Below are positions 222-24,066 of a stretch of 64,000 bases of DNA, in pieces. The notes beneath the pieces were generated by a model. The model was not told where the DNA came from, searched no databases, and worked only from the letters and a program-made list of their open reading frames with translations. Positions within the stretch are counted from its first letter, which is position 1, and every line of letters starts with the position of its first letter. The stretch is from positions 2,790,001-2,854,000 of the forward strand of contig NZ_JBGNYA010000001.1 in assembly GCF_041477585.1 (NCBI RefSeq), read 5' to 3'. The DNA is from Halobellus sp. MBLA0158 (GTDB lineage: Archaea; Halobacteriota; Halobacteria; Halobacteriales; Haloferacaceae). The position numbers and the translations under genes are program-made.

Positions 222-1112
222 CTACCGCTGCCACGCGATCGCGACGAAGGCCAGCGCGACCACGCCGCCGAGGAAGAAGAACGCCCCCGGCGGGAGCGAC
301 GCCACGGCCGATCCGAGCGCGCCGATCGGATCCCCGCCCGCGGCCGACTGGGTCGTCGCCGCGGCGGTCTGGGCCGCCTCCGTCGCCGTCCGCGTCGCCT
401 CCGCGACCGTCTCTGTGGGTTCCGGAAGCGGAGTCTGGGTCGGCGTCTGGGTGGGCGAGCCGGTCGCCTCCGCGATCTGCATATCGCTCTCTGTCGCCGT
501 TGGCGTCGCGGGTTCGGCCGTCGGCGTCGCGGTCGGCTCGGCCGTCGTCCCTCCGGTGAGATTCGCCCCGCCGCCCCCGGCGTCGGCCGCCGTCGCACCG
601 CCGTCGGCGGATCCGCCCGCGCCGCCGTCGCCCCCCGCGCTCCCCGCTCCGGTCGAGAGCGTCGGGCCGGCGCCCGCCCGCACGAGCCGGTCGACGACGA
701 CGCTCCCGAGCGCGACGACGCCCAGCCCGCCGAGGAGTTGGGTGAGCGCGGACTGGAGCCCGGTGGTGTCGTCCTCGCTCCCGGCGACGACGACGAGCGC
801 CTGGTCCGAGGGCGCATAGACCGTCATCTCCCGACCCTTCGCGGAGTAGGCCGTGCCGGCCGGTTCGATGAGGCCGGCGGTCTCCAGGCGATCGAGGTGG
901 TACTGGGCGTTCTGGATCGAGGTGTCCGCGCGGTCTGCGAGGTCCGATGGCGGCCCCGGTTCCTCGTGGAGTTCCCCCAGGAGCTGCCGCGCCGTCTCGG
1001 AGGAGATTGCCGCCAGAAGGTCGTCGACGTCGTCGCTGTCGAGCCCGACGACGCGGGGGTCTTTGTCCTCGTCGTCGGGGAGGTCCGGCCGGGAGGGCAG
1101 GATATCGGCCAT
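222..1112 (-). CDS. Membrane-anchored winged-helix (ArsR-like) regulator
   Basis: Probable DNA-binding regulator tethered to the membrane, 296 aa. Residues about 36-110 form an ArsR-like winged helix (the run SIQNAQYHLDRLETAGLIEP is the recognition-helix region). A hydrophobic segment follows at about 126-144, then a Gly/Ala and Thr/Pro-rich linker at about 150-265, and a final hydrophobic segment ends near FVAIAWQR. This domain order is common in haloarchaeal regulators of unknown target. I chose the ATG at 1112 because the upstream in-frame part is basic and low-complexity, unlike the acidic MADILPSRPDLPDD start. It is divergent from the small membrane gene at 1240. Signal and regulon cannot be read from sequence. 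Confidence 0.8.
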   Translation of the reverse strand: MADILPSRPDLPDDEDKDPRVVGLDSDDVDDLLAAISSETARQLLGELHEEPGPPSDLADRADTSIQNAQYHLDRLETAGLIEPAGTAYSAKGREMTVYAPSDQALVVVAGSEDDTTGLQSALTQLLGGLGVVALGSVVVDRLVRAGAGPTLSTGAGSAGGDGGAGGSADGGATAADAGGGGANLTGGTTAEPTATPTAEPATPTATESDMQIAEATGSPTQTPTQTPLPEPTETVAEATRTATEAAQTAAATTQSAAGGDPIGALGSAVASLPPGAFFFLGGVVALAFVAIAWQR

Positions 1113-13574: not shown

Positions 13575-13831
13575 GGCCGGCGGCGTCTCTCCCGGAACAG
13601 ATATTGTGAATTTCGTCGAATACCGCAGTATATAAGATGTTCGTTTTTCTTTCACCCCCAGATAGAAACGAACAGTGGTAAATTTCGCTCAAAACATTTA
13701 CATCGAAGTATACGAAACAGTGTGGTATAGTATGCTACTCCGTGCCATATCTGGAGCACAGCGGTGCCGGACTGGTCGGGCCGCCCGGGAACGGCATCCG
13801 AGATTCGCTGGGTGACGGGCCGAGGTCTACT
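13575..13831. other. AT-rich intergenic region between pgsB and gshA
   Basis: No gene is seen. The sequence turns AT-rich at 13610-13735. An inverted repeat with perfect 8-base arms (gttcgttt 13639-13646, aaacgaac 13666-13673) is followed on the plus strand by T-rich sequence inside the loop. It could be an operator for gshA or part of the pgsB terminator. A tatagtat element near 13724 is a candidate TATA box for gshA with a leader of about 80 bases. Confidence 0.4.
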
Positions 13832-14941
13832 ATGTCAGCCACCGAATCAGCGCCGATCCGGCGGAGCATCGAAGTCGAGTACTGGGTCGTCGACGAGACG
13901 GGGCGGTTGACCGAGCCCGGCGATCTCGCGTCCGCGACGGGCGCCGAGCGGGAGTTCGTCGAGCCGCTCTTGGAGATCAAGACCACGCCCTGCGAGTCGG
14001 CGGCGGCCCTCAGAGCGGAGTTGCTCGAACGGATCCGCGAGGTGCTCCGGCTGGCCGAGGAGCGCGGAAAGCGGCTCGTCCCGCTGGCGACGCCGGCCGC
14101 CCGCGAGGAGATCACAGAGCTGGACAGCGAGCGCACCAGCGTCCAAAACGAAGTCGTCGGCGAGGACTTCGAGCACGTGCGACACTGCGCGGGGACCCAC
14201 ATCCACGTGGAACAGCAGCCCGGCTGTGCGGTCGATCAGGCGAACGCGTTCGTCGCGCTCGACCCCGCGCTGGCGCTCGTGAACTCCTCGCCGTACGTCG
14301 GCGGCCGCCGGGTGACTGCGGGGGCGCGCTCGGAACTGTACCGTCGGCGCGCGTACGCGACGATGTCCCACCAGGGCCGCCTGTGGCGGTACCTCGACGA
14401 CACCGACCAGTGGGATCGGCGGCTCGAACGGCGGTACGAGGAGTTCGTCGCGGAGGCGCTGGCGGCCGGAATCGACCGGCAGACGGTCGAGGCGAACTTC
14501 TCGCCGGAGAGCGCGGTGTGGACGCCGGTGCAACTTCGAGCCCGGTTCGGCACCGTGGAGTGGCGCTCGCCCGACACGGCGCTGCCGTCCCAGGTGCTCC
14601 GGCTGGCGGACCGACTGGCCGCGATCTCGGCGACCGTCCGCGACGCGGAGGTGCGGATCGAGGGCCAGCGGGGCGAGGTGTCCGACGAGGCGGTCGTCCT
14701 CCCGGAGTTCGCGACCGTGCTCTCCCACGTCGACGACGCGATCGAGAAGGGCCTCGCCTCGGAGTCACTTCGGCGGTATCTCGACCGGATGGGCTTCGAC
14801 GTCAATGCCTACGATCCCCTCACGCAAGAGGTGGATCGAGGTCGGGAGCTGTCGGACGCGGCGGCGCGGGAACTCCGGCTGGAATCCGCCGAGCGACTCG
14901 AACGCGACGCATTCCGACGGAGCGCGATCAATGCGGACTGA
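13832..14941 (+). CDS. gshA: Glutamate-cysteine ligase (haloarchaeal GshA, GCS2 type)
   Basis: Makes gamma-glutamylcysteine from glutamate, cysteine and ATP; this is the main low-molecular-weight thiol of many haloarchaea. The protein has 369 aa and the GCS2 (carboxylate-amine ligase) pattern: SIEVEYWVVDETGRL at the start, FVEPLLEIKTTPCES, CAGTHIHVEQQPG with the His pair, NSSPYVGGRR and FGTVEWRSPDTALPS. The ATG at 13832 is chosen because the conserved IEVEYW strand begins soon after it; an in-frame GTG at 13742 would add an unlike 30 residues. The next gene, a class I amidotransferase, starts 11 bases before the stop. Confidence 0.88.
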   Translation: MSATESAPIRRSIEVEYWVVDETGRLTEPGDLASATGAEREFVEPLLEIKTTPCESAAALRAELLERIREVLRLAEERGKRLVPLATPAAREEITELDSERTSVQNEVVGEDFEHVRHCAGTHIHVEQQPGCAVDQANAFVALDPALALVNSSPYVGGRRVTAGARSELYRRRAYATMSHQGRLWRYLDDTDQWDRRLERRYEEFVAEALAAGIDRQTVEANFSPESAVWTPVQLRARFGTVEWRSPDTALPSQVLRLADRLAAISATVRDAEVRIEGQRGEVSDEAVVLPEFATVLSHVDDAIEKGLASESLRRYLDRMGFDVNAYDPLTQEVDRGRELSDAAARELRLESAERLERDAFRRSAINAD

Positions 14942-15793: not shown

Positions 15794-15830
15794 CGGATGG
15801 GACCGCCCGGATTCGAACCGGGGTCACGGG
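15794..15830. repeat. attL: 37-bp copy of the tRNA-Pro 3' end
   Basis: This is a perfect 37-base match to 23990-24026. It contains the last 33 bases of tRNA-Pro (T arm, variable loop and 3' half of the anticodon stem) and four flanking bases. There is no 5' half here, so it is not a tRNA gene. It marks the left junction of the integrated element, next to the integrase gene. Confidence 0.9.
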
Positions 15831-15886
15831 ATCTATTCGGCTTATACTGGCTCTCGCGGGCGCTAATGGGCGCTTCGGAGAAAGCT

Positions 15887-16912
15887 ATGAGCGAAGAACT
15901 CGAACCCATTTCGCCTGCTGAGGCGAAGGAGATGTACCTGAACGCGAGAGAGCACGAACTATCACAATCCTCTCTCGACAGCTATCACTACCGACTGAAG
16001 CATTTCATTCGGTGGTGTGAGGAAGTCGAGGGAATCGAGAATATGAACGACCTCTCCGGTCGAGATCTACAGCGGTACAAGACTTGGCGGAGAGACGACG
16101 GCGATTTGAAGCCGGTGACCTTGGATGGCCAACTCGATGCGCTTCGGGTTTTCATCCGTTGGTGCGAATCCATCGACGCAGTTGAACAGGATCTTCACCA
16201 GAAATTCAAAGCGCTGATGCCGAATCTCAATAGAGGCGATCAGCAATCTGAGGATATCCTCACGACCGATGAAGCAGAGATGCTCCTCGAATACCAGCGG
16301 AAATTTGAGTACGCTTCTCGATCCCACGTTATCATCGAAATCTTGTGGCATACCGGGATTCGCCTCGGAGCGCTTCATTCTCTAGACGTGGATGACTACG
16401 ATCCGGAGGCTGAACGGCTGGAGTTCCACCATCGACCTGATTCAGGGACGCGACTGAAAAACGGCTCCGAGGGCGAGCGAATGGTTGCTCTTGATGCAGA
16501 TGTTTGTCGTGTCATCGAAGATTGGATCGAATACCATCGCCACGACGTAGAGGACGAATATGGGCGGGAACCCCTAATCACGACGAGAAACAGCCGACTC
16601 AATAAGACGAATATCAGAGATGCGGTCTATCGGGTTACTCGCCCCTGCTACTATGGGGAAGATTGCCCGAAGGGACGCGATCCTGACGACTGCGAGGCTA
16701 CCACTTACCCAGACTACTGTAGATGTCCGGTGAATGTATCAACTCACGCTATCCGCCGGGGATCAATCACTCACTTCCTGACCGAAGATGTGCCCGAGAA
16801 GGTTGTTTCTGATCGAATGAATGTGGGGCAGGACGTTCTGGACAAGCATTATGACAAGCGCGATGAAGAGGTGAAGGTCGAGCAGAGACGAGGATATCTT
16901 AACAATATCTAA
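15887..16912 (+). CDS. int: Tyrosine recombinase (element integrase)
   Basis: Catalyses site-specific insertion and excision of the element at the tRNA-Pro 3' end. The protein has 341 aa. The N-terminal SAM-like core-binding domain covers about residues 8-112 and the catalytic domain the rest. Catalytic residues can be read: Arg159 in HTGIRLGALHSLDV, the His287-x-x-Arg290 box in STHAIRRGSITHFL, and the nucleophile Tyr322 in DKHYDKR. A five-Cys insert at about 254-280 (CYYGEDC...CEA...CRCP) precedes the HxxR box and could bind zinc. It starts 57 bases inside attL, the usual place for an integrase. An in-frame ATG at 15866 is the alternative start. Confidence 0.92.
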   Translation: MSEELEPISPAEAKEMYLNAREHELSQSSLDSYHYRLKHFIRWCEEVEGIENMNDLSGRDLQRYKTWRRDDGDLKPVTLDGQLDALRVFIRWCESIDAVEQDLHQKFKALMPNLNRGDQQSEDILTTDEAEMLLEYQRKFEYASRSHVIIEILWHTGIRLGALHSLDVDDYDPEAERLEFHHRPDSGTRLKNGSEGERMVALDADVCRVIEDWIEYHRHDVEDEYGREPLITTRNSRLNKTNIRDAVYRVTRPCYYGEDCPKGRDPDDCEATTYPDYCRCPVNVSTHAIRRGSITHFLTEDVPEKVVSDRMNVGQDVLDKHYDKRDEEVKVEQRRGYLNNI

Positions 16913-16998
16913 TCTCTCTTTTGTGTCCGGTCACGAAATCCCTCTCCGCATCATCTTATTACCGTGGCTAAGAGCTCAAAATCCATATTCTAAGAAAG

Positions 16999-18711
16999 TT
17001 AGGTGGTGTGTGAGTCACCAGTTTTGATCGCCATATCTACCAGTTCATAATTACCCTCTATGTGATCATAGAACTGCTTCCGTCTTCCCAACTCATATTG
17101 TCTTAATGAATACGCAATTACAGCCTTAGTAAGCTCTCGCTCGGCCTCTCCATAGAGTACCTCAATACGTTCCCAATCAGAATAATCACCATACTCAGAG
17201 AGTATAGCAGTAGCATATTCTCGACTTTCAACCAATTCATTTCTTCTCCCGATCACTTGACGCGCACAATGAATAACTTCCGTTGAATTGAATTCTTCCT
17301 CAAAGAGCCACCTAAGTATCAGGAAATTGTGATAATTGTATCTCAATTCCTGATTAGCAACCGCTGATGCCATCCTTGCCGCGACCTCATCCTTATTGGG
17401 AAGATATTTGAAATAGTTATATAAGATCCTTCGAACATCTGCCTGACCATCTTTGATATAATCAATACAATAATCAATCGCAATCGTATCTTCTGCTTTT
17501 CCTAATCGGTTAATTATATATCTAAAAATATGAGTGTCAACATCTTTGAATTCTTTATCTTGGATGTGGCGTGAATATGCTTCTTGCAAATATTCCCGCT
17601 GCTCTTCAGTTATTTCATCATCTGAATCGTCAGCAGTTTCCGCCGAATCATCCTCTTCAGGTGGTAGACCCCCATCAGAAACTGTTTCACGATCCTCCGA
17701 CTCGGTACCGTAAGGAATTGTACCACCACTTACCGTGCGTGCATACTCTGCAGCAGCTTCGGCAAGTGATCGATCCGTAGTCTCAGTATCTTCTACCTCA
17801 TCGGAGTCATCTGCCTCTTGATCCCCCAGTTCTTCTTTTATTTGCTCAAAGGTCGCCTCCGGCTCGGCATAGGCCTGAAGAGCATCTATTGATGGCATAA
17901 TTTCCGTCTTTCCTGATTTCATATTCAGGCCTCGTATTCTGAATTCACGCTCCAGAAGGTTCTGCGCTTCAATTGCTGCATCCCGGGAGTCACAGAATAT
18001 AACAAAGTCATCGTTGTATCGGACGTGATCAAATCCGTTATTCTTGAGCCGTCTGTCTACCCCATCCAGATAAATTTCTGCAAGTATATCTGAGGGGCCA
18101 TAGCCCTGTGGGACACCCCGCTTACGTGGGTCTGCCCAAGGCCGGATTAAATGCCTAATTTCGTTTCCAACGTCTTGCCGATCAGTGAATTGTTTGAAAA
18201 TTGATGTGACCCTCTCAATATCGATATTTTCATAAAATCCAGACACATCCGTTTCCAATACATATTCGTTCTCTTCTGCAAGATCTATTTTCTTTTCTTG
18301 CATTTCTTTCCAATAGGGCTTCTCAAATTCATCCCATTGATTGCTATCTTCAATATCCTCTCGAAGTATATGCGAATAGCGACATTCTCCAGCCGACCAT
18401 TCAATTGAAGAACGCAATTCATCAAAGACTTCTAATATCAAAGCTGAATATACAACCAAATCTTCAGGATGTAGTACGCTAGCAGGGCGAAGATGGTAGT
18501 CCCTTTTTGGGACATCAATTATTCGTGGGGAGCGTGGATCAAATTCACCACATTCAAGAGTTTCTCGTAGATCTTCAAGCCAATCCTCCTTCTTATGCTC
18601 TAAAACACGGATAATATACGGGCTACTGATGAATGAATTCATATAGTGGCTATAATCTCGCTTCGTCTTCCTCCAAGCGAGGGTTAAATTCAGGCTCCCC
18701 GCGAAGTCCAT
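16999..18711 (-). CDS. Stand-alone reverse transcriptase, UG/Abi-like
   Basis: RNA-directed DNA polymerase of 570 aa from the ATG at 18711 (578 from an in-frame GTG at 18735). Numbering from the GTG, the RT motifs are: VPKRDYHLRPASVLHPEDL at about 75-92, the first catalytic Asp163 in ETDVSGFYENID, GVPQG at 207-211, and the active-site YNDD at 240-243. There is no maturase or HNH domain, so it is not a group II intron. After the palm comes an acidic Ser/Asp/Glu-rich spacer (about 303-377) and a helical C-terminal region of some 200 residues. That build recalls UG/Abi and DRT defence RTs with helical repeats. It is strongly AT-rich and converges on the integrase. A defence role is inference. 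Confidence 0.85.
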   Translation of the reverse strand: MDFAGSLNLTLAWRKTKRDYSHYMNSFISSPYIIRVLEHKKEDWLEDLRETLECGEFDPRSPRIIDVPKRDYHLRPASVLHPEDLVVYSALILEVFDELRSSIEWSAGECRYSHILREDIEDSNQWDEFEKPYWKEMQEKKIDLAEENEYVLETDVSGFYENIDIERVTSIFKQFTDRQDVGNEIRHLIRPWADPRKRGVPQGYGPSDILAEIYLDGVDRRLKNNGFDHVRYNDDFVIFCDSRDAAIEAQNLLEREFRIRGLNMKSGKTEIMPSIDALQAYAEPEATFEQIKEELGDQEADDSDEVEDTETTDRSLAEAAAEYARTVSGGTIPYGTESEDRETVSDGGLPPEEDDSAETADDSDDEITEEQREYLQEAYSRHIQDKEFKDVDTHIFRYIINRLGKAEDTIAIDYCIDYIKDGQADVRRILYNYFKYLPNKDEVAARMASAVANQELRYNYHNFLILRWLFEEEFNSTEVIHCARQVIGRRNELVESREYATAILSEYGDYSDWERIEVLYGEAERELTKAVIAYSLRQYELGRRKQFYDHIEGNYELVDMAIKTGDSHTT

Positions 18712-18845
18712 ATACACCCCATTCAACTCAAACACAATGAATTTTAGACCCTCTAAATGCTGATTTCCACTTCTCTCATAGCCGGTATTTATCGACTCTC
18801 GTCGCCCAGCGCCATCTTCTTGGATGTCAATTCACGTGATATGGT
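18712..18845. other. Divergent intergenic region between RT and zinc-motif gene
   Basis: A 134-base gap separates two divergent genes. A minus-strand GATAAATACC at about 18785-18794 is a candidate TATA box for the RT gene, giving a leader of about 50 bases. Several defence RTs use an adjacent structured RNA as template or effector. I see no strong hairpin here, but the leader is the first place to look. Confidence 0.35.
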
Positions 18846-19172
18846 ATGCTCTGCCGATGCAAAGATCACGAATGGCCGAATGGGAGAACCAATACCTACG
18901 TTGCTAAGGTAGAGCCAGCTGACCCGCCAAACTATGCGATAATCTGCGGGAATTGCGATACTCACGGGGCACTCTTCCTGAATGAATCAGAATATTATGA
19001 ATACGCGTATGAGGGGAAGAGGGACTTCTCGCCGACAAAAGCCAATACGTTCAAAATTCGGCTAAACAAAGAGCCTGCCTCCGTTGATCAAGAACGGGCC
19101 CCAAGTGAAGAAAATCCTCCCGAAGAGTTGAGCGGGCTTGATCACGACAGCGCAGCGGATTCCGATTGGTAA
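18846..19172 (+). CDS. Small zinc-motif protein, unknown function
   Basis: A 108-aa protein with a putative zinc site. CRCKDHEW at the N terminus supplies two Cys and a His, and IICGNCDTHG supplies a second CxxC pair with a His, about 35 residues apart. The middle is aromatic (NESEYYEYAYEGKRDFSP) and the last 30 residues are an acidic, Pro-rich tail. It is transcribed away from the reverse transcriptase and lies between it and the replication gene, converging on the latter with one base between the stops. It could be a partner of the RT or a DNA-binding accessory protein of the element. Not assigned to a family. Confidence 0.55.
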   Translation: MLCRCKDHEWPNGRTNTYVAKVEPADPPNYAIICGNCDTHGALFLNESEYYEYAYEGKRDFSPTKANTFKIRLNKEPASVDQERAPSEENPPEELSGLDHDSAADSDW

Positions 19173-19173
19173 A

Positions 19174-20649
19174 TTACTCTACGTCGCTTAATTCTGGTTC
19201 GTCGGTCCACGAGTTGATCCCATCGGCTTCTTCGGGATCGTATCTTTGGCCGTACTGCAGCACATAGTTAGCATTCGGCGGATCCGGCCAATCGGCAGGA
19301 TAGTATACCCACGTGTTACCGATTCGGGCAGCCTTCACATCACCATAGATTGCTTGAAGCCGTCGGAAGGCCTCCTCGTAGCTTCTCCGTGTATTGTATC
19401 CATCGTCGTGTTCGTACGCTCTATCGATGACTTCCTGCTTGCCCGGGTACTGTTCGTGAATCGCAGGCAATTCGTCGGGTATGCGACCCTCGGATATCTC
19501 CGACTCCGTCTGCGAATTCCGCGGGTCCATATCATTAGACAGGAGGGGGGGATTATTGGGGAGCAAATCATTGAGTGCAGTCCAGATGGCGTCGTAGGTC
19601 AGTACAGCGTATTCGTTGTTCTCGCGGCGATTTCCTGTACTTTTCTTCTCGACTAGCTGTTTGAATCGCTCTGGATCGAAGGAGTTGAGGGCGTATGTGA
19701 TGATGTAGCTTCGATAGCTCTCATTTTCGTAAAGCCAGCGTCGTTTCTGTCCATCTTTGGTCCACTGGTGCTCACGGCAGTAGTGTGTATAGGTTCCAGT
19801 TGCAATACTGATTGACTCATCGTGATCGTAGTCGCAGTAGTCTCGGAGTGTTCCATAGAGAAGCGAGAGCGCGATAGCATCGTGCGTATTCCTGTCGATT
19901 TGGCCATTCTCTTTGAAAAGATCCTCTCCCTCAAAATCGGCAGTTCCTCCCTGCAGGAAATCCATAATAGCGTTGAAAGCGGGGGTCGAAATCTCTTGCA
20001 GAGTGTGCAGGGCGAGTTCTCCTCGATCAACAAGTTCGGAATCCGGTGCAGCAATGAGATTATGATTGGGGACCTCTTGATCCCCGTCACTGGTGCAAGC
20101 CTCTTGGAGGTCTTCGAAGGAATCCCCGGAGAGTGTCGCCATCGCCTTGTCCGTGTCAATAGTATACTCCCCGATTCCCGTACCTGGGCAGTTTTCTTTG
20201 CCTTCGTCGCAGTTCGCGTGATCGATAGTTGAGCCTGGTCCGAGCGCATACCAGCCGTAACGGACACTTCCCCACCAGAGATCGGTGTTCGAGATCTCCT
20301 CGTCATCCTCAACGATGTAGTAGAAATGATATCCACCGTGGGCACTTTCAACGACGAATGTTGATGGCAGATCTTTGATCCATTCAGGGAGATCGTCTAT
20401 AGGTACGTCGATATCGAGGATAACTAATCCGTCGCCACCGTGAACGGTGTAGTTCTCGTCAACAAGACCAGGGAATGTTTGATTCGAGAGGTCGGAATGG
20501 CCCTCTTTCTGAGGCTTCTTGGTCCCGTCAATTGCGCTAACACTCCGCTTGACGCGCACCCCTGCTTCGTACAGTCGTTGTTCTATACGACTCTTAGTGT
20601 CGCTCTCCGCTCCGGTACGGTTATTGGAATGAGGCTCCGATTTGCTCAC
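19174..20649 (-). CDS. Primase-polymerase (PrimPol/AEP) replication protein
   Basis: Likely the replication initiator of the element; PrimPol enzymes both prime and extend DNA. The protein has 491 aa. The archaeo-eukaryotic primase motifs are visible: the metal-binding DxD in GLVILDIDVPIDD (Asp79, Asp81), the SxH-type motif in VVESAHGGYHFYYIV (His108), and the PGS motif in RYGWYALGPGSTID. The C-terminal region (about 425-475) with TRRSYEEAFRRLQAIYG and IGNTWVYYPADWP looks like a winged helix. No superfamily 3 helicase Walker motif is seen, so a host helicase would be needed. The GTG start is supported by a strong ribosome binding site. A small ORF lies upstream on the same strand. Confidence 0.82.
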   Translation of the reverse strand: MSKSEPHSNNRTGAESDTKSRIEQRLYEAGVRVKRSVSAIDGTKKPQKEGHSDLSNQTFPGLVDENYTVHGGDGLVILDIDVPIDDLPEWIKDLPSTFVVESAHGGYHFYYIVEDDEEISNTDLWWGSVRYGWYALGPGSTIDHANCDEGKENCPGTGIGEYTIDTDKAMATLSGDSFEDLQEACTSDGDQEVPNHNLIAAPDSELVDRGELALHTLQEISTPAFNAIMDFLQGGTADFEGEDLFKENGQIDRNTHDAIALSLLYGTLRDYCDYDHDESISIATGTYTHYCREHQWTKDGQKRRWLYENESYRSYIITYALNSFDPERFKQLVEKKSTGNRRENNEYAVLTYDAIWTALNDLLPNNPPLLSNDMDPRNSQTESEISEGRIPDELPAIHEQYPGKQEVIDRAYEHDDGYNTRRSYEEAFRRLQAIYGDVKAARIGNTWVYYPADWPDPPNANYVLQYGQRYDPEEADGINSWTDEPELSDVE

Positions 20650-20658
20650 GTCGAAGGG

Positions 20659-20666
20659 TCACCTCC
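20659..20666 (-). promoter_or_regulatory. Shine-Dalgarno site for the PrimPol gene
   Basis: The minus strand reads GGAGGTGA, followed by nine bases and then the GTG at 20649. So strong a site is unusual next to the leaderless host genes. It fixes the GTG start and implies the gene is translated from a longer transcript, probably starting ahead of the small ORF at 20742-20885. Confidence 0.7.
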
Positions 20667-20741
20667 TTCGGCCCGTCTCGATTGAAGCGTCGGGGGTTCC
20701 GAGTTGGGCGCTCGCCCCCAGCACTCTTCCCATTCATAATG

Positions 20742-20885
20742 CTATTCGGTATTTGATGCGAGTTCGTCCGCCCCTTGTTCAAGAAATTGGCTCCAAGTTA
20801 GTTCGAGATCATCTTTCACATCACGTGCTTTTTGAATCGAATCCTCGTGCGCTGCGATGTCTTTGTAGTTTTCTGGATATGGCAA
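20742..20885 (-). CDS. Small ORF upstream of PrimPol, 47 aa
   Basis: An open frame of 47 codons from a TTG start, ending about 90 bases before the PrimPol GTG on the same strand. The predicted peptide begins MPYPENYKDIAAHEDSI and contains VKDDLELTWSQFLEQGADEL, a soluble amphipathic helix resembling the C-terminal part of small haloarchaeal plasmid or antitoxin-like proteins. There is no ATG and a stop lies 10 codons upstream of the TTG, so it may be a truncated relic. It could be a copy-control or partition peptide. The protein-like composition is the main support. Confidence 0.4.
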   Translation of the reverse strand: MPYPENYKDIAAHEDSIQKARDVKDDLELTWSQFLEQGADELASNTE

Positions 20886-21018
20886 ACCTGTTAGAATATT
20901 GGGGATAGGATCCCATCAAGTGTCGGTTTCCTCAGATGGGCGGAATATGAAAGTACTCCGAAAGTAGTTAATTTTCAGGAAATTCTATCAGGCTTGAATT
21001 TCAAACTCAAACTCAATA

Positions 21019-21456
21019 ATGTCAGTGAATGAAGAAAGAACGTCGAATGTCGGCGCTCCAGTCGGGAATGATAATGCAGTCGGTAATCCAGGTGGCGGGG
21101 CTCCAATTGGAAACACCAATGCAGTCGGGAATAGCGGTGGTGGTGCGCCCGAAGGGAATGTGAACCGAAAGTCACACGGAGTACATTGTTCTCTGGAAAA
21201 GATTGATGAGCGTGCTGAGGGCGAGATAGCTGAATTCATCGATCAGATGGAGAGTCTGATTCGAGAACGAGCTACTGAAGATCCGGGAGCAGTAGCGCGA
21301 GAAATTCCTCTACGTATCATCCGCTTTGATCGAGCGGTTCAGTATGTTCAGCAGGAAGGTCTCCGATTAGATGATGGATTTAATCCGATGCTCGCTACTT
21401 CACGACGGATTTCGGCCCGCATCTTTCAGGATCTCCAAGAGATAGGGGCGATATAG
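21019..21456 (+). CDS. GAPxGN-repeat protein, possibly DNA-binding
   Basis: A 145-aa protein whose first 52 residues hold three near-copies of a Gly/Ala/Pro/Asn unit: GAPVGNDNAVGN, GAPIGNTNAVGN and GAPEGNVNRKSHG, spaced about 20 residues apart. The rest is helical (SLEKIDERAEGEIAEFIDQMESL ... RIIRFDRAVQYVQQEGL). Similar GAPxGNxNAxxHG starts are found in many phage and mobile-element proteins, including small-terminase-like ones, where the unit precedes a helix-turn-helix. Its job here is unknown. It is divergent from the PrimPol cluster, with about 130 AT-rich bases ahead of the ATG. Confidence 0.6.
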   Translation: MSVNEERTSNVGAPVGNDNAVGNPGGGAPIGNTNAVGNSGGGAPEGNVNRKSHGVHCSLEKIDERAEGEIAEFIDQMESLIRERATEDPGAVAREIPLRIIRFDRAVQYVQQEGLRLDDGFNPMLATSRRISARIFQDLQEIGAI

Positions 21457-21714
21457 GCCCGAATCTCTGAATCGCCGTGAATGCTAGTGAGAGAAATCTC
21501 TCCCGAGAAGATGATGCTTTCCTCTGCCATCCCCCCTCGGATTGCTTAGAGCCAATGTCAGCCCGCTTAGAATTAATTCTGACCGGATAGAGAGGTCGGA
21601 ATGGGAATGTGGCCTTCCCCAGGTGTTGTTCGTGCCTGGGTCGATCAGAATTATATACCAGATACCGCGTTACTGGCCGGCGGCGATTTTGCTAAACACG
21701 GACTCAACCTGCGA

Positions 21715-22392
21715 TTAGATATCATCAAGTAGTGATTGTTTCTTTTCTTGGAATTCTTCTTCCGTAATTGCGCCATCATCGTAGAGCGACTTGAGTCGGG
21801 TAATCTGGTCAAGAGCATCATCTGAATCTTCTTCAGTAGTTTGTTGCCGTTTCTTGCGGAGATAATCGACTGCACTCTCTACCTCCTCAGATCCATACTT
21901 ATTCTTGGTTTTGGTTGCAGAACAGTGATAGGTTGCGCTCTTCGTTTGAATAGAGAGTCGAATGCCCACCATTCCTCTATTCAAATTGACTGCTGTGACG
22001 ATATCATAGGGAATGGTATGTTCGTCATATCCGCGAGCGTGGTTTGCTATAACCAGGATTCGTTGAGAAGTGAGAATCGTATATGCACCCCCGATCCGGC
22101 GATCACGATCCCAGCCGACGATACTCTCTGATCCTGCGCCCTGTCCTTCCACATCAACGGTTGAGCCATTGAGAAAGTAGTGAGGTTGTTCCTCATCGTC
22201 TAATAGGTTGATAGGAGCAACGAACCCATCAAGGACTATCAGGAACGCATCCCGAGTTACTGATTCTCCTTGTGCGCTCTCAACAAGTGTCTGAAGTCGC
22301 TCTTCGTCAAAATCGAGTTTGCTTTCGATCCATTCCTCTGTTCGTCGATCAGCTTCGTCGAATTTCTCTTTGATGCTATTCCAGAACCCCAT
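21715..22392 (-). CDS. PH-like domain protein with C-terminal SHOCT motif
   Basis: A 225-aa soluble protein. Residues about 60-180 look like a bacterial PH domain: LNGSTVDVEG, YTILTSQRILVIANHARGYD and IPYDIVTAVNLNRGMVGIRL are typical strands, as in 'short PH' proteins that report on lipids or partners. The last 27 residues (ITRLKSLYDDGAITEEEFQE and the following KK) form a SHOCT motif, a short helix pair found at the C terminus of many proteins that oligomerise. The N terminus is helical and charged. It is a frequent passenger of haloarchaeal and bacterial mobile elements, but no function is established. Transcribed towards the GAPxGN gene. Confidence 0.72.
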   Translation of the reverse strand: MGFWNSIKEKFDEADRRTEEWIESKLDFDEERLQTLVESAQGESVTRDAFLIVLDGFVAPINLLDDEEQPHYFLNGSTVDVEGQGAGSESIVGWDRDRRIGGAYTILTSQRILVIANHARGYDEHTIPYDIVTAVNLNRGMVGIRLSIQTKSATYHCSATKTKNKYGSEEVESAVDYLRKKRQQTTEEDSDDALDQITRLKSLYDDGAITEEEFQEKKQSLLDDI

Positions 22393-22509
22393 ATCAGATT
22401 TCTATCTAGTTCATAGAAGATGTAGCTTTCCCTCGCTTCTATAGCTTCTTAGGTAGCCCAATCCATTTTTCCGAAGTCGGCTTTCTGTCGGATAATCCAG
22501 TTGCAGTAG

Positions 22510-22776
22510 ATGCGGTATTCCGCCGACTGGATGACTATCGCCGACGAGCGAATCCTCGAATATCTTTCCACCACCGAAACAAGCACGCCGAAGAAGATGG
22601 CTGATAGCGGTGATGTTCGATTCTCTCGTCAGTATATCGGTGAGCGATGTCGGAAGTTAGCGGATTATGGAATGGTTCAGCATCTCGGAAATGGTGTCTA
22701 TCGAATAACCAACTCGGGTGAGGAGTATCTTAGTGGTGATCTTGATGCTGAGGATTTGAGTCCAGATATTGGATAA
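22510..22776 (+). CDS. PhiH1-repressor-like winged-helix protein
   Basis: An 88-aa DNA-binding protein of the haloarchaeal PhiH1-repressor-like group. The start MRYSADWMTIADERILEYL is typical. It is followed by a helix-turn-helix (KKMADSGDVRFSRQYIGER, with recognition helix around SRQYIGERCRKL) and the wing GMVQHLGNGVYRITNSGEEYL. The tail is acidic. In phage PhiH the repressor holds the lysogenic state, so here it is a good candidate for controlling integrase or replication genes. The second winged-helix gene follows in the same direction after 93 bases. Confidence 0.78.
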   Translation: MRYSADWMTIADERILEYLSTTETSTPKKMADSGDVRFSRQYIGERCRKLADYGMVQHLGNGVYRITNSGEEYLSGDLDAEDLSPDIG

Positions 22777-22869
22777 TGATCGGGGTGGTTGAGGGGAACA
22801 ATGTATCTCAGGTTTGCCGATAAGCAGTTGATTTCATCTTTTTATCAGTTGGTTATCTAATAGTTCGAT

Positions 22870-23145
22870 ATGACCGAGGACGAAATCACGGATGAGCAAT
22901 GGAATATCCTCAGAGTGTTACGACAACATCGTCGAATTCCCGTCCGTGAAATTCATAATGAGCTTACGGAGTTGCCGGAGTCCCGATTTGAGGTCTCGCC
23001 TGATTACGGTGAGGGATGGAACGATGAACGAGAGGAAGTTTGGGATCTGAAGTCTGAACTCCACAATAAAGGGCTTATCACAAACGACTATCAAGAGTGG
23101 TACCTCACTAAAGAGGGACGAGAGATTCTCTCACGAGAGTCGTAG
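22870..23145 (+). CDS. Small winged-helix protein
   Basis: A 91-aa predicted DNA-binding protein. Helix one starts TDEQWNILRVLRQHRRIPV, a putative second helix is REIHNELTELPESRF, and the end has the winged-helix shape (DLKSELHNKGLITNDYQEWY, then LTKEGREILS). An insert of about 20 polar residues (VSPDYGEGWNDEREEVW) separates the helices, which is unusual in the group. It follows the PhiH1-like gene and may work with it in a lysogeny-like switch. A TATA-like stretch (tttttatc) lies about 30 bases upstream of the ATG. Confidence 0.65.
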   Translation: MTEDEITDEQWNILRVLRQHRRIPVREIHNELTELPESRFEVSPDYGEGWNDEREEVWDLKSELHNKGLITNDYQEWYLTKEGREILSRES

Positions 23146-23208
23146 TGCTAGTAGATCTCTATTGATGTCTGTCGAATTAGTTTTAGAATCTTATTTGCTA
23201 TGATTCAG

Positions 23209-23502
23209 TCACTCCTGCGATTTTTTCACGGTCTCAAATCCGAGTTGTTCGAGTAATTCTTCACCCCGATCAGAGTGAAAGTCTCTCCGCTCCTCGCCAG
23301 TTGCGTGCGCAATAGCGCGGCCGACAGTGTATTTTAGAGGATATTCAAATCCTCCGAATTTGACGTATCTGCTTCTTTCACCTTTAGATTCGTTCGGATC
23401 CATTTCGGCCATAGCTGTGAGAATGTGAATATTAGTGAGAGCAATCGGTTCGTCTGTTCCGGACCAATCTATCGTAGCCGTAGTGAGTTCAGTCATTGCC
23501 AC
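23209..23502 (-). CDS. Orphan protein of the element, 97 aa
   Basis: A 97-residue polar protein without a recognisable domain. The first part (ELTTATIDWSGTDEPIALTN) resembles beta strands; the second (VGRAIAHATGEERRDFHSDR, GEELLEQLGFETVKK) is helical. There is no Cys, membrane segment or signal peptide. It is convergent with the winged-helix gene and closest to attR among the element's genes. A start at the second Met (23496) is equally possible. The TATA-like gatatatatta about 25-30 bases upstream, on the minus strand tttaatatatatc, supports this start region. Function unknown. Confidence 0.55.
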   Translation of the reverse strand: MAMTELTTATIDWSGTDEPIALTNIHILTAMAEMDPNESKGERSRYVKFGGFEYPLKYTVGRAIAHATGEERRDFHSDRGEELLEQLGFETVKKSQE

Positions 23503-23989
23503 GATCCAAGTTTGTGGCTGATATATATTAAATCAATGAAACTTATATTAGAGCTTATGAGGAGAAGGACTCCGCCTGAAGGACAGCAATTGGATTAAAT
23601 CACCTGTTCTCTGTTCTCTGTTGTCTAAGTCCGGCCGCGAATACTGAGTGCGAAGGAATTGCGGTATAAGCAGAGATAATTCTGAATCAGATGCTTCCTT
23701 TAGCTCTTAGGAACCAAATCGCTCTCACGGCAAATATGAGCCGTAGAGAGGATTCTGACCTATCGGAGGCGATGGAAAATTCGGACTCTCGCAGATACGA
23801 GGCTCTCAGGGAATGAGTGTGGGAGATACAGTACACGAGTAACTATATCCGGCTTCCGAGTCAAATATAGGGTGAAGCGCCTGACGGCGTCGGGGCGCGA
23901 GTAAAGTATGGGTGGAATGAGATCCCGAAATGCGCGAAGAAATCGCTATAAAGCGTCGTGGTCGTGCGAATTTCGAGCGAGTGAAGATT
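23503..23989. other. Gene-poor stretch between the orphan gene and attR
   Basis: About 490 bases without a convincing gene. Two short open frames exist on the plus strand: 20 codons from about 23537 and 26 codons at 23736-23816 (MSRREDSDLSEAMENSDSRR, then six more). Neither has a clear promoter and both are too short to call. The last 110 bases are GC-richer and more host-like. The stretch may hold recombination or arm-binding sites for the integrase. Confidence 0.35.
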
Positions 23990-24026
23990 CGGATGGGACC
24001 GCCCGGATTCGAACCGGGGTCACGGG
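23990..24026. repeat. attR: 37-bp repeat within tRNA-Pro
   Basis: This is the perfect partner of 15794-15830. It overlaps the last 33 bases of the intact tRNA-Pro gene plus four bases past its 3' end. The element therefore restored the tRNA gene on integration, as usual for tyrosine integrases that use tRNA 3' ends. Confidence 0.9.
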
Positions 24027-24066
24027 CACCCAAGGCCCGAAGTATACCAGGCTAACCCACGGTCCC
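23994..24066 (-). tRNA. tRNA-Pro (anticodon UGG)
   Basis: A 73-nt tRNA on the minus strand. The acceptor arms GGGACCG and CGGTCCC pair, the T arm is CCCGG-TTCGAAT-CCGGG, and the anticodon stem CGGGC/GCCCG encloses the loop CTTGGGT, giving anticodon TGG. The discriminator base is A, CCA is not encoded and no intron is present. Its 3' half is the attachment site of the integrated element. A TATA-like box lies 25-30 bases upstream, so the gene should still be expressed. Confidence 0.95.

Follow-up and report, generated by a model that had tools for sequence, protein, structure and literature searches.

What does an intact reverse transcriptase (RT) gene do inside a small element integrated in a haloarchaeal tRNA gene? 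The gene lies on the minus strand of the 64-kb stretch of DNA analysed here (the window), at 16999..18711, and is the largest gene of its element, placed between the integrase and the primase. The answer that we favour, and that we hold to be probable, is that it encodes a stand-alone defence RT (DRT) of the UG21 family, carried as swappable cargo and working like the single-gene Class 1 enzymes AbiK, DRT4 and DRT6.

An intact gene and its relatives

The gene runs from an ATG at 18711 to a stop at 16999 and encodes 570 aa. Its longest open frame begins further upstream at a GTG (16999..18735, minus strand, 578 aa); homologues start at the equivalent ATG, and the ATG is therefore taken as the start, in agreement with an earlier interpretation of this DNA made from its letters alone (the sequence-only reading). 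The catalytic set recognised in that reading is present in full, with D163 (GTG numbering; the TDV motif, D155 in ATG numbering), GVPQG at 207-211 and YNDD at 240-243 (both in GTG numbering). The key residues of these motifs are invariant or nearly so across relatives, and the Pfam model RVT_1 matches with 62.5 bits against a cut-off of 29.6. The gene is under purifying selection and is maintained as a protein: relative to a copy encoding a 75%-identical protein (locus L025), differences at codon positions 1, 2 and 3 number 114, 61 and 282, with a dN of 0.16, a saturated dS of 2.7 and a dN/dS of about 0.06. It is thus no chance open reading frame.

The PADLOC profile RT_UG21 (PDLC03759) matches the protein with 479.6 bits (E 2.8e-144) over residues 14-571 (GTG numbering) and profile positions 4-497 of 503, whereas the runner-up family, UG20, reaches 199 bits. 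Relatives score 403-591 bits, and among solved structures Abi-P2 is the closest in sequence. None of the curated NCBIfam models that represent group II, retron and DRT2-5 RTs comes anywhere near its cut-off. In an RT-domain tree, a small one of 16 rows built without a retron reference, the RT groups with the UG21, UG20, UG32, Drt8 and Abi-P2 rows, apart from a group II RT, the BPP-1 DGR RT and one further RT (100/99). Haloarchaeal UG21 members cluster in such trees (83-84/84-88), the bacterial members L027 and L030 are loosely placed, and UG20 forms a separate, well-supported pair. Judged by profile score, the RT belongs to the UG21 family, and by profile score and tree position to the UG/Abi (DRT) superfamily. 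The superfamily assignment of the sequence-only reading therefore holds, and the phylogeny that it had proposed as a check parts the RT from group II and DGR RTs within this small, retron-free tree. UG21 is a family already catalogued, and the window RT is a new archaeal member of it, which lowers its novelty. In a limited literature search we found no published function for any UG21 member, the family being named only in passing, and no publication on a haloarchaeal DRT.

Several other RTs were encountered along the way. Another haloarchaeal RT (L003, 1120-2115; about 330 aa, with YMDD) is placed by the tree with the BPP-1 DGR RT and may belong to an archaeal DGR or a related element. Scans of viral contigs with the window RT returned distant RTs only. 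On an IMG/VR viral contig (L033) there is a gene for a full-length Drt8 (UG7) RT (490 bits), and in a P2-like phage, pro147 (L117/L121), an Abi-P2 RT is accompanied by another reverse transcriptase at a distance of less than 1 kb.

Besides the window gene, the searches yielded seven UG21 genes: five in haloarchaea, one in a myxobacterium and one in Nitrospirota. Full UG21 genes occur rarely, in 4/391 sampled genomes of the class, 5/392 of the order and 1/145 genomes of the class to which the myxobacterial copy belongs. With 33-42% GC, every haloarchaeal copy is AT-rich; the settings differ. The 75%-identical copy in L025 stands alone in a chromosome, without element genes and with a tRNA-Ile about 0.9 kb away; L064 and L026 are likewise single AT-rich UG21 genes amid ordinary chromosomal genes. 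The copy in L065, 51% identical to the window RT, adjoins genes of another mobile element, and that in L024 is carried by a plasmid of Halomontanus rarus, with the BREX-1 genes brxE, brxA, brxB, brxC and pglX about 5 kb away. In Corallococcus (L027), a CBASS operon with a SAVED-peptidase effector (704 bits) and a cyclase (348 bits) lies 1.5 kb downstream of the UG21 gene; in Nitrospirota (L030), the UG21 gene lies 64 bp downstream of a SoFic-type Fic gene. The Corallococcus island (L027, 527-2047 and 12959-15728) combines UG21 with this CBASS pair and with PDC-M17A, a candidate defence gene. Co-location with defence genes, which the sequence-only reading had suggested scoring, is thus seen with known systems (BREX, CBASS) at two of the eight loci, and a recognised defence neighbour is absent at five.

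None of the other genes of the window element recurs near UG21 in L025, L065, L064, L026, L024 or L027, and the RT is therefore regarded as a stand-alone unit. A 108-aa zinc-ribbon-like protein, identified by a weak match and encoded divergently from the RT (18846..19172, plus strand), was considered as a partner and rejected, its gene being absent beside other UG21 genes.

A defence role for the UG21 RT is likely in view of its family, its island neighbours, its cargo position (see below), its AT-rich and patchy distribution and the selection acting on it; the sequence-only reading had rightly treated the antiviral role as an inference. The target need not be a virus: the enzyme could instead act against competing mobile elements or plasmids, or be an RT domesticated for house-keeping, as the solitary chromosomal copies without defence neighbours (L025, L026, L064) might suggest. 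However, a gene that is so rare and patchy (5/392 genomes of the order), AT-rich in GC-rich hosts, and found on elements and in defence islands fits such roles poorly, and we regard them as rather improbable.

Domain layout and the search for an RNA partner

The protein consists of an RT domain (about 1-283), an acidic linker of about 80 residues modelled with low confidence (285-365) and an alpha-helical, HEAT-like domain (about 366-570). The sequence-only reading had described the RT as free of maturase, HNH, integrase-fused and retron-like accessory domains; this is correct for domains of these types, but the C-terminal HEAT-like domain had been overlooked. AlphaFold gave a poor model for the window RT (pLDDT 68, pTM 0.46) and, for the Corallococcus UG21 protein, a model with pLDDT 76 and pTM 0.76; both show the RT palm and fingers followed by an alpha-helical repeat domain. 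A Foldseek search with the Corallococcus model, whose protein is 26-29% identical to the window RT, returned DRT4, DRT6 and AbiK as the best full-length folds, with TM scores of 0.57-0.62 against the cryo-EM chains of DRT4 and DRT6 versus 0.36-0.40 against the ncRNA-using DRT9. The C-terminal half of the UG21 profile also matches haloarchaeal HEAT-repeat proteins. Stand-alone HEAT proteins matched in this way (L011-L020) were considered as split partners and set aside; the two read along their whole length, L011 and L020, resemble ordinary HEAT-repeat proteins.

Published work names such a helical, HEAT-like domain as the defining feature of Class 1 UG/Abi RTs. Those Class 1 enzymes that have been characterised synthesise DNA untemplated by any nucleic acid, and in some of them a tyrosine serves as primer (PMC13174585; PMC9508834). 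The models of the window RT and of its Corallococcus relative, together with the HEAT-protein matches, show this C-terminal feature. Beyond the catalytic core, four tyrosines are invariant in UG21 (Y414, Y499, Y520 and Y548) and are, from conservation, candidate priming residues. No invariant tyrosine was found among UG21 relatives in the N-terminal loop that AbiK and Abi-P2 use.

Alternatively, the RT could resemble Class 2 enzymes and copy an adjacent structured ncRNA into repetitive or toxic cDNA, as do DRT2, DRT9 and DRT10. Some DRTs do work with such an RNA, and two UG21 loci, L065 and L024, have a conserved stretch of 170-190 bp downstream of the RT (42.5 bits; shuffled sequences reach 22.6 at most). 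A similar stretch (70%) occurs in genome G371, but away from the RT of that genome, beside an unrelated 268-aa gene, and the stretch is absent from the window; it is therefore not a general UG21 partner and was dropped as a candidate. No conserved RNA was found in the flanks of the window gene. The open reading frame of this gene is 74% identical at the DNA level to that of L025, yet the 300-600 bp flanking the RT show no likeness beyond chance between the two loci on either side. The RNA fold of the 134 nt upstream of the window RT is no better than that of shuffles (z = +1.4), that of the L025 upstream region is marginal (z = -0.9), and an Rfam search returned tRNA only. Architecture and fold are also nearer to DRT4 and DRT6 than to DRT9. 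An RNA partner might still come from another place in the genome or from within the RT open reading frame. We give the Class 2-like mode with an adjacent RNA a low probability.

The 170-190 bp stretch is an observation in its own right. It is non-coding (L065, 11617-11830; L024, about 13690-13890; L100, about 1500-1674), holds an inverted repeat (TATGAACA...TGTTCATA) and, in two of these three loci, has a variable gene on one side and a resolvase-like gene on the other. Perhaps the loci share it as part of a different haloarchaeal mobile element, one that has a cargo slot of its own.

The host element and its cargo slot

The 8.2-kb element (15794..24026) is bounded by perfect 37-bp direct repeats: attL (15794..15830) is a copy of the 3' end of tRNA-Pro, and attR (23990-24026) falls in the 3' end of the target gene itself, a tRNA-Pro(TGG) at 23994..24066 on the minus strand. 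The GC fraction is 0.42 in the RT gene, 0.48 in the element and 0.68 in the rest of the window. A tyrosine integrase (15887..16912, plus strand; Phage_integrase, phrog_1) adjoins attL. On the far side of the RT and the zinc-ribbon gene follow a Prim-Pol-like primase, the replication gene of the element (19174..20649, minus strand; weak PF09250 match, conserved together with the integrase in sister elements), a 145-aa Gly/Asn-repeat protein (21019..21456, plus strand) and a PH-domain/SHOCT protein (21715-22392); two winged-helix proteins and one more small protein complete the element. No convincing virion genes were found in it. The Gly/Asn-repeat protein resembles the N-terminal part of terminase small subunits; these matches are weak and fall onto the Gly/Asn repeat. 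Repeats, tRNA and integrase bear out the tRNA-integrated element described in the sequence-only reading, and the gene content agrees with its statement that the RT is the largest gene of an element devoid of virion genes.

Sister elements were sought with the integrase and the primase. L090 carries an integrase 78% identical to that of the window element, a Gly/Asn-repeat protein (63%) and a primase, and is bounded by 34-bp tRNA-Phe repeats. It has no RT; beside its integrase lies a DUF2254-like membrane protein, and elsewhere it encodes an HNH nuclease as well as a protein that weakly matches AbiJ_NTD4. At the place of the RT, L095, whose integrase is of the same family (68%), has two unknown genes alongside an HSDR_N nuclease, and L092 has a gene weakly matching a candidate defence family. 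Since sister elements without the RT carry other genes there, the RT occupies a variable slot and is dispensable to the element family. L090, L091, L092, L093 and L095 make up a family of small haloarchaeal elements with integrase and primase, with or without the Gly/Asn-repeat protein; several are in tRNA genes, and varied, often nuclease- or defence-like genes lie beside the integrase.

These comparisons bear on the possibility that the RT serves the replication or transfer of the element rather than defence. Its size and its position between integrase and primase would suit such a task, but kin elements of the same integrase/primase family do without it, and UG21 genes are found solitary in chromosomes or on a plasmid with neither integrase nor primase; we judge this explanation very unlikely. 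The sequence-only reading had inferred a cargo position and had named a consistent tie of homologues to element replication as the finding that would speak against it. UG21 genes outside this element and sister elements lacking the RT favour cargo.

An origin as a group II intron, retron or DGR RT has next to no probability and is refuted: the RT motifs are common to all these enzymes and the group II model does reach 80 bits, but its curated cut-off is 300, retron models give at most 36 bits against cut-offs of at least 235, Rfam, which covers the described retron RNAs only, finds neither intron nor retron RNA, the element has no template/variable repeat pair, and the tree split noted above separates the RT from group II and DGR RTs.

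Proposed mechanism and comparison with known systems

Based on the above data, we propose that the UG21 RT works as a single-gene Class 1 defence enzyme. The RT and helical HEAT-like domains would together assemble as an oligomer, and virus infection would trigger the enzyme to build single-stranded DNA untemplated by any nucleic acid. Synthesis would start from one of the protein's own tyrosines, and the DNA made, or its build-up, would halt virus replication or arrest the cell. We infer the untemplated, protein-primed chemistry by analogy, from the architecture and the lack of a flanking RNA; oligomerisation, trigger and outcome are likewise presumed from the related enzymes. A wider proposal is more tentative: small tRNA-integrated elements of haloarchaea may exchange defence genes, with UG21 as a distinct archaeal antiviral polymerase that makes a DNA product of its own, as yet undescribed.

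The DRT work surveyed here concerns bacterial systems, and UG21 is an uncharacterised branch of a superfamily whose branches studied to date make several different DNA products. With this intact, selected gene on a mobile element, experiments in genetically tractable haloarchaea could directly test whether archaea turn DNA-making RTs against viruses, and the cargo slot to which the sister elements point could be mined for more defence genes. Such a swappable slot would play a role comparable to that of the hot spots of bacterial satellites.

Within its own family, the window RT shares the full-length RT and helical domains and the stand-alone gene, is 51-75% identical to two haloarchaeal relatives and differs from them in its longer acidic linker (about 80 residues). 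UG20, partly archaeal (L028), is the next-best family (199 versus 480 bits). Among antiviral UG/Abi RTs, DRT2, DRT9 and DRT10 (Class 2) belong to the same superfamily but need an adjacent ncRNA, of which there is no sign here. AbiK and Abi-P2 resemble UG21 in having an RT without a thumb followed by a helical solenoid, but their priming tyrosine lies on an N-terminal loop and has no invariant counterpart in UG21. DRT4 (UG15) and DRT6 (UG12) are, like UG21, single genes joining an RT to a helical domain, and they give the best full-length folds; they are bacterial, share a sequence identity of only about 13-16%, and untemplated synthesis, which is shown for DRT4, may by analogy extend to UG21.
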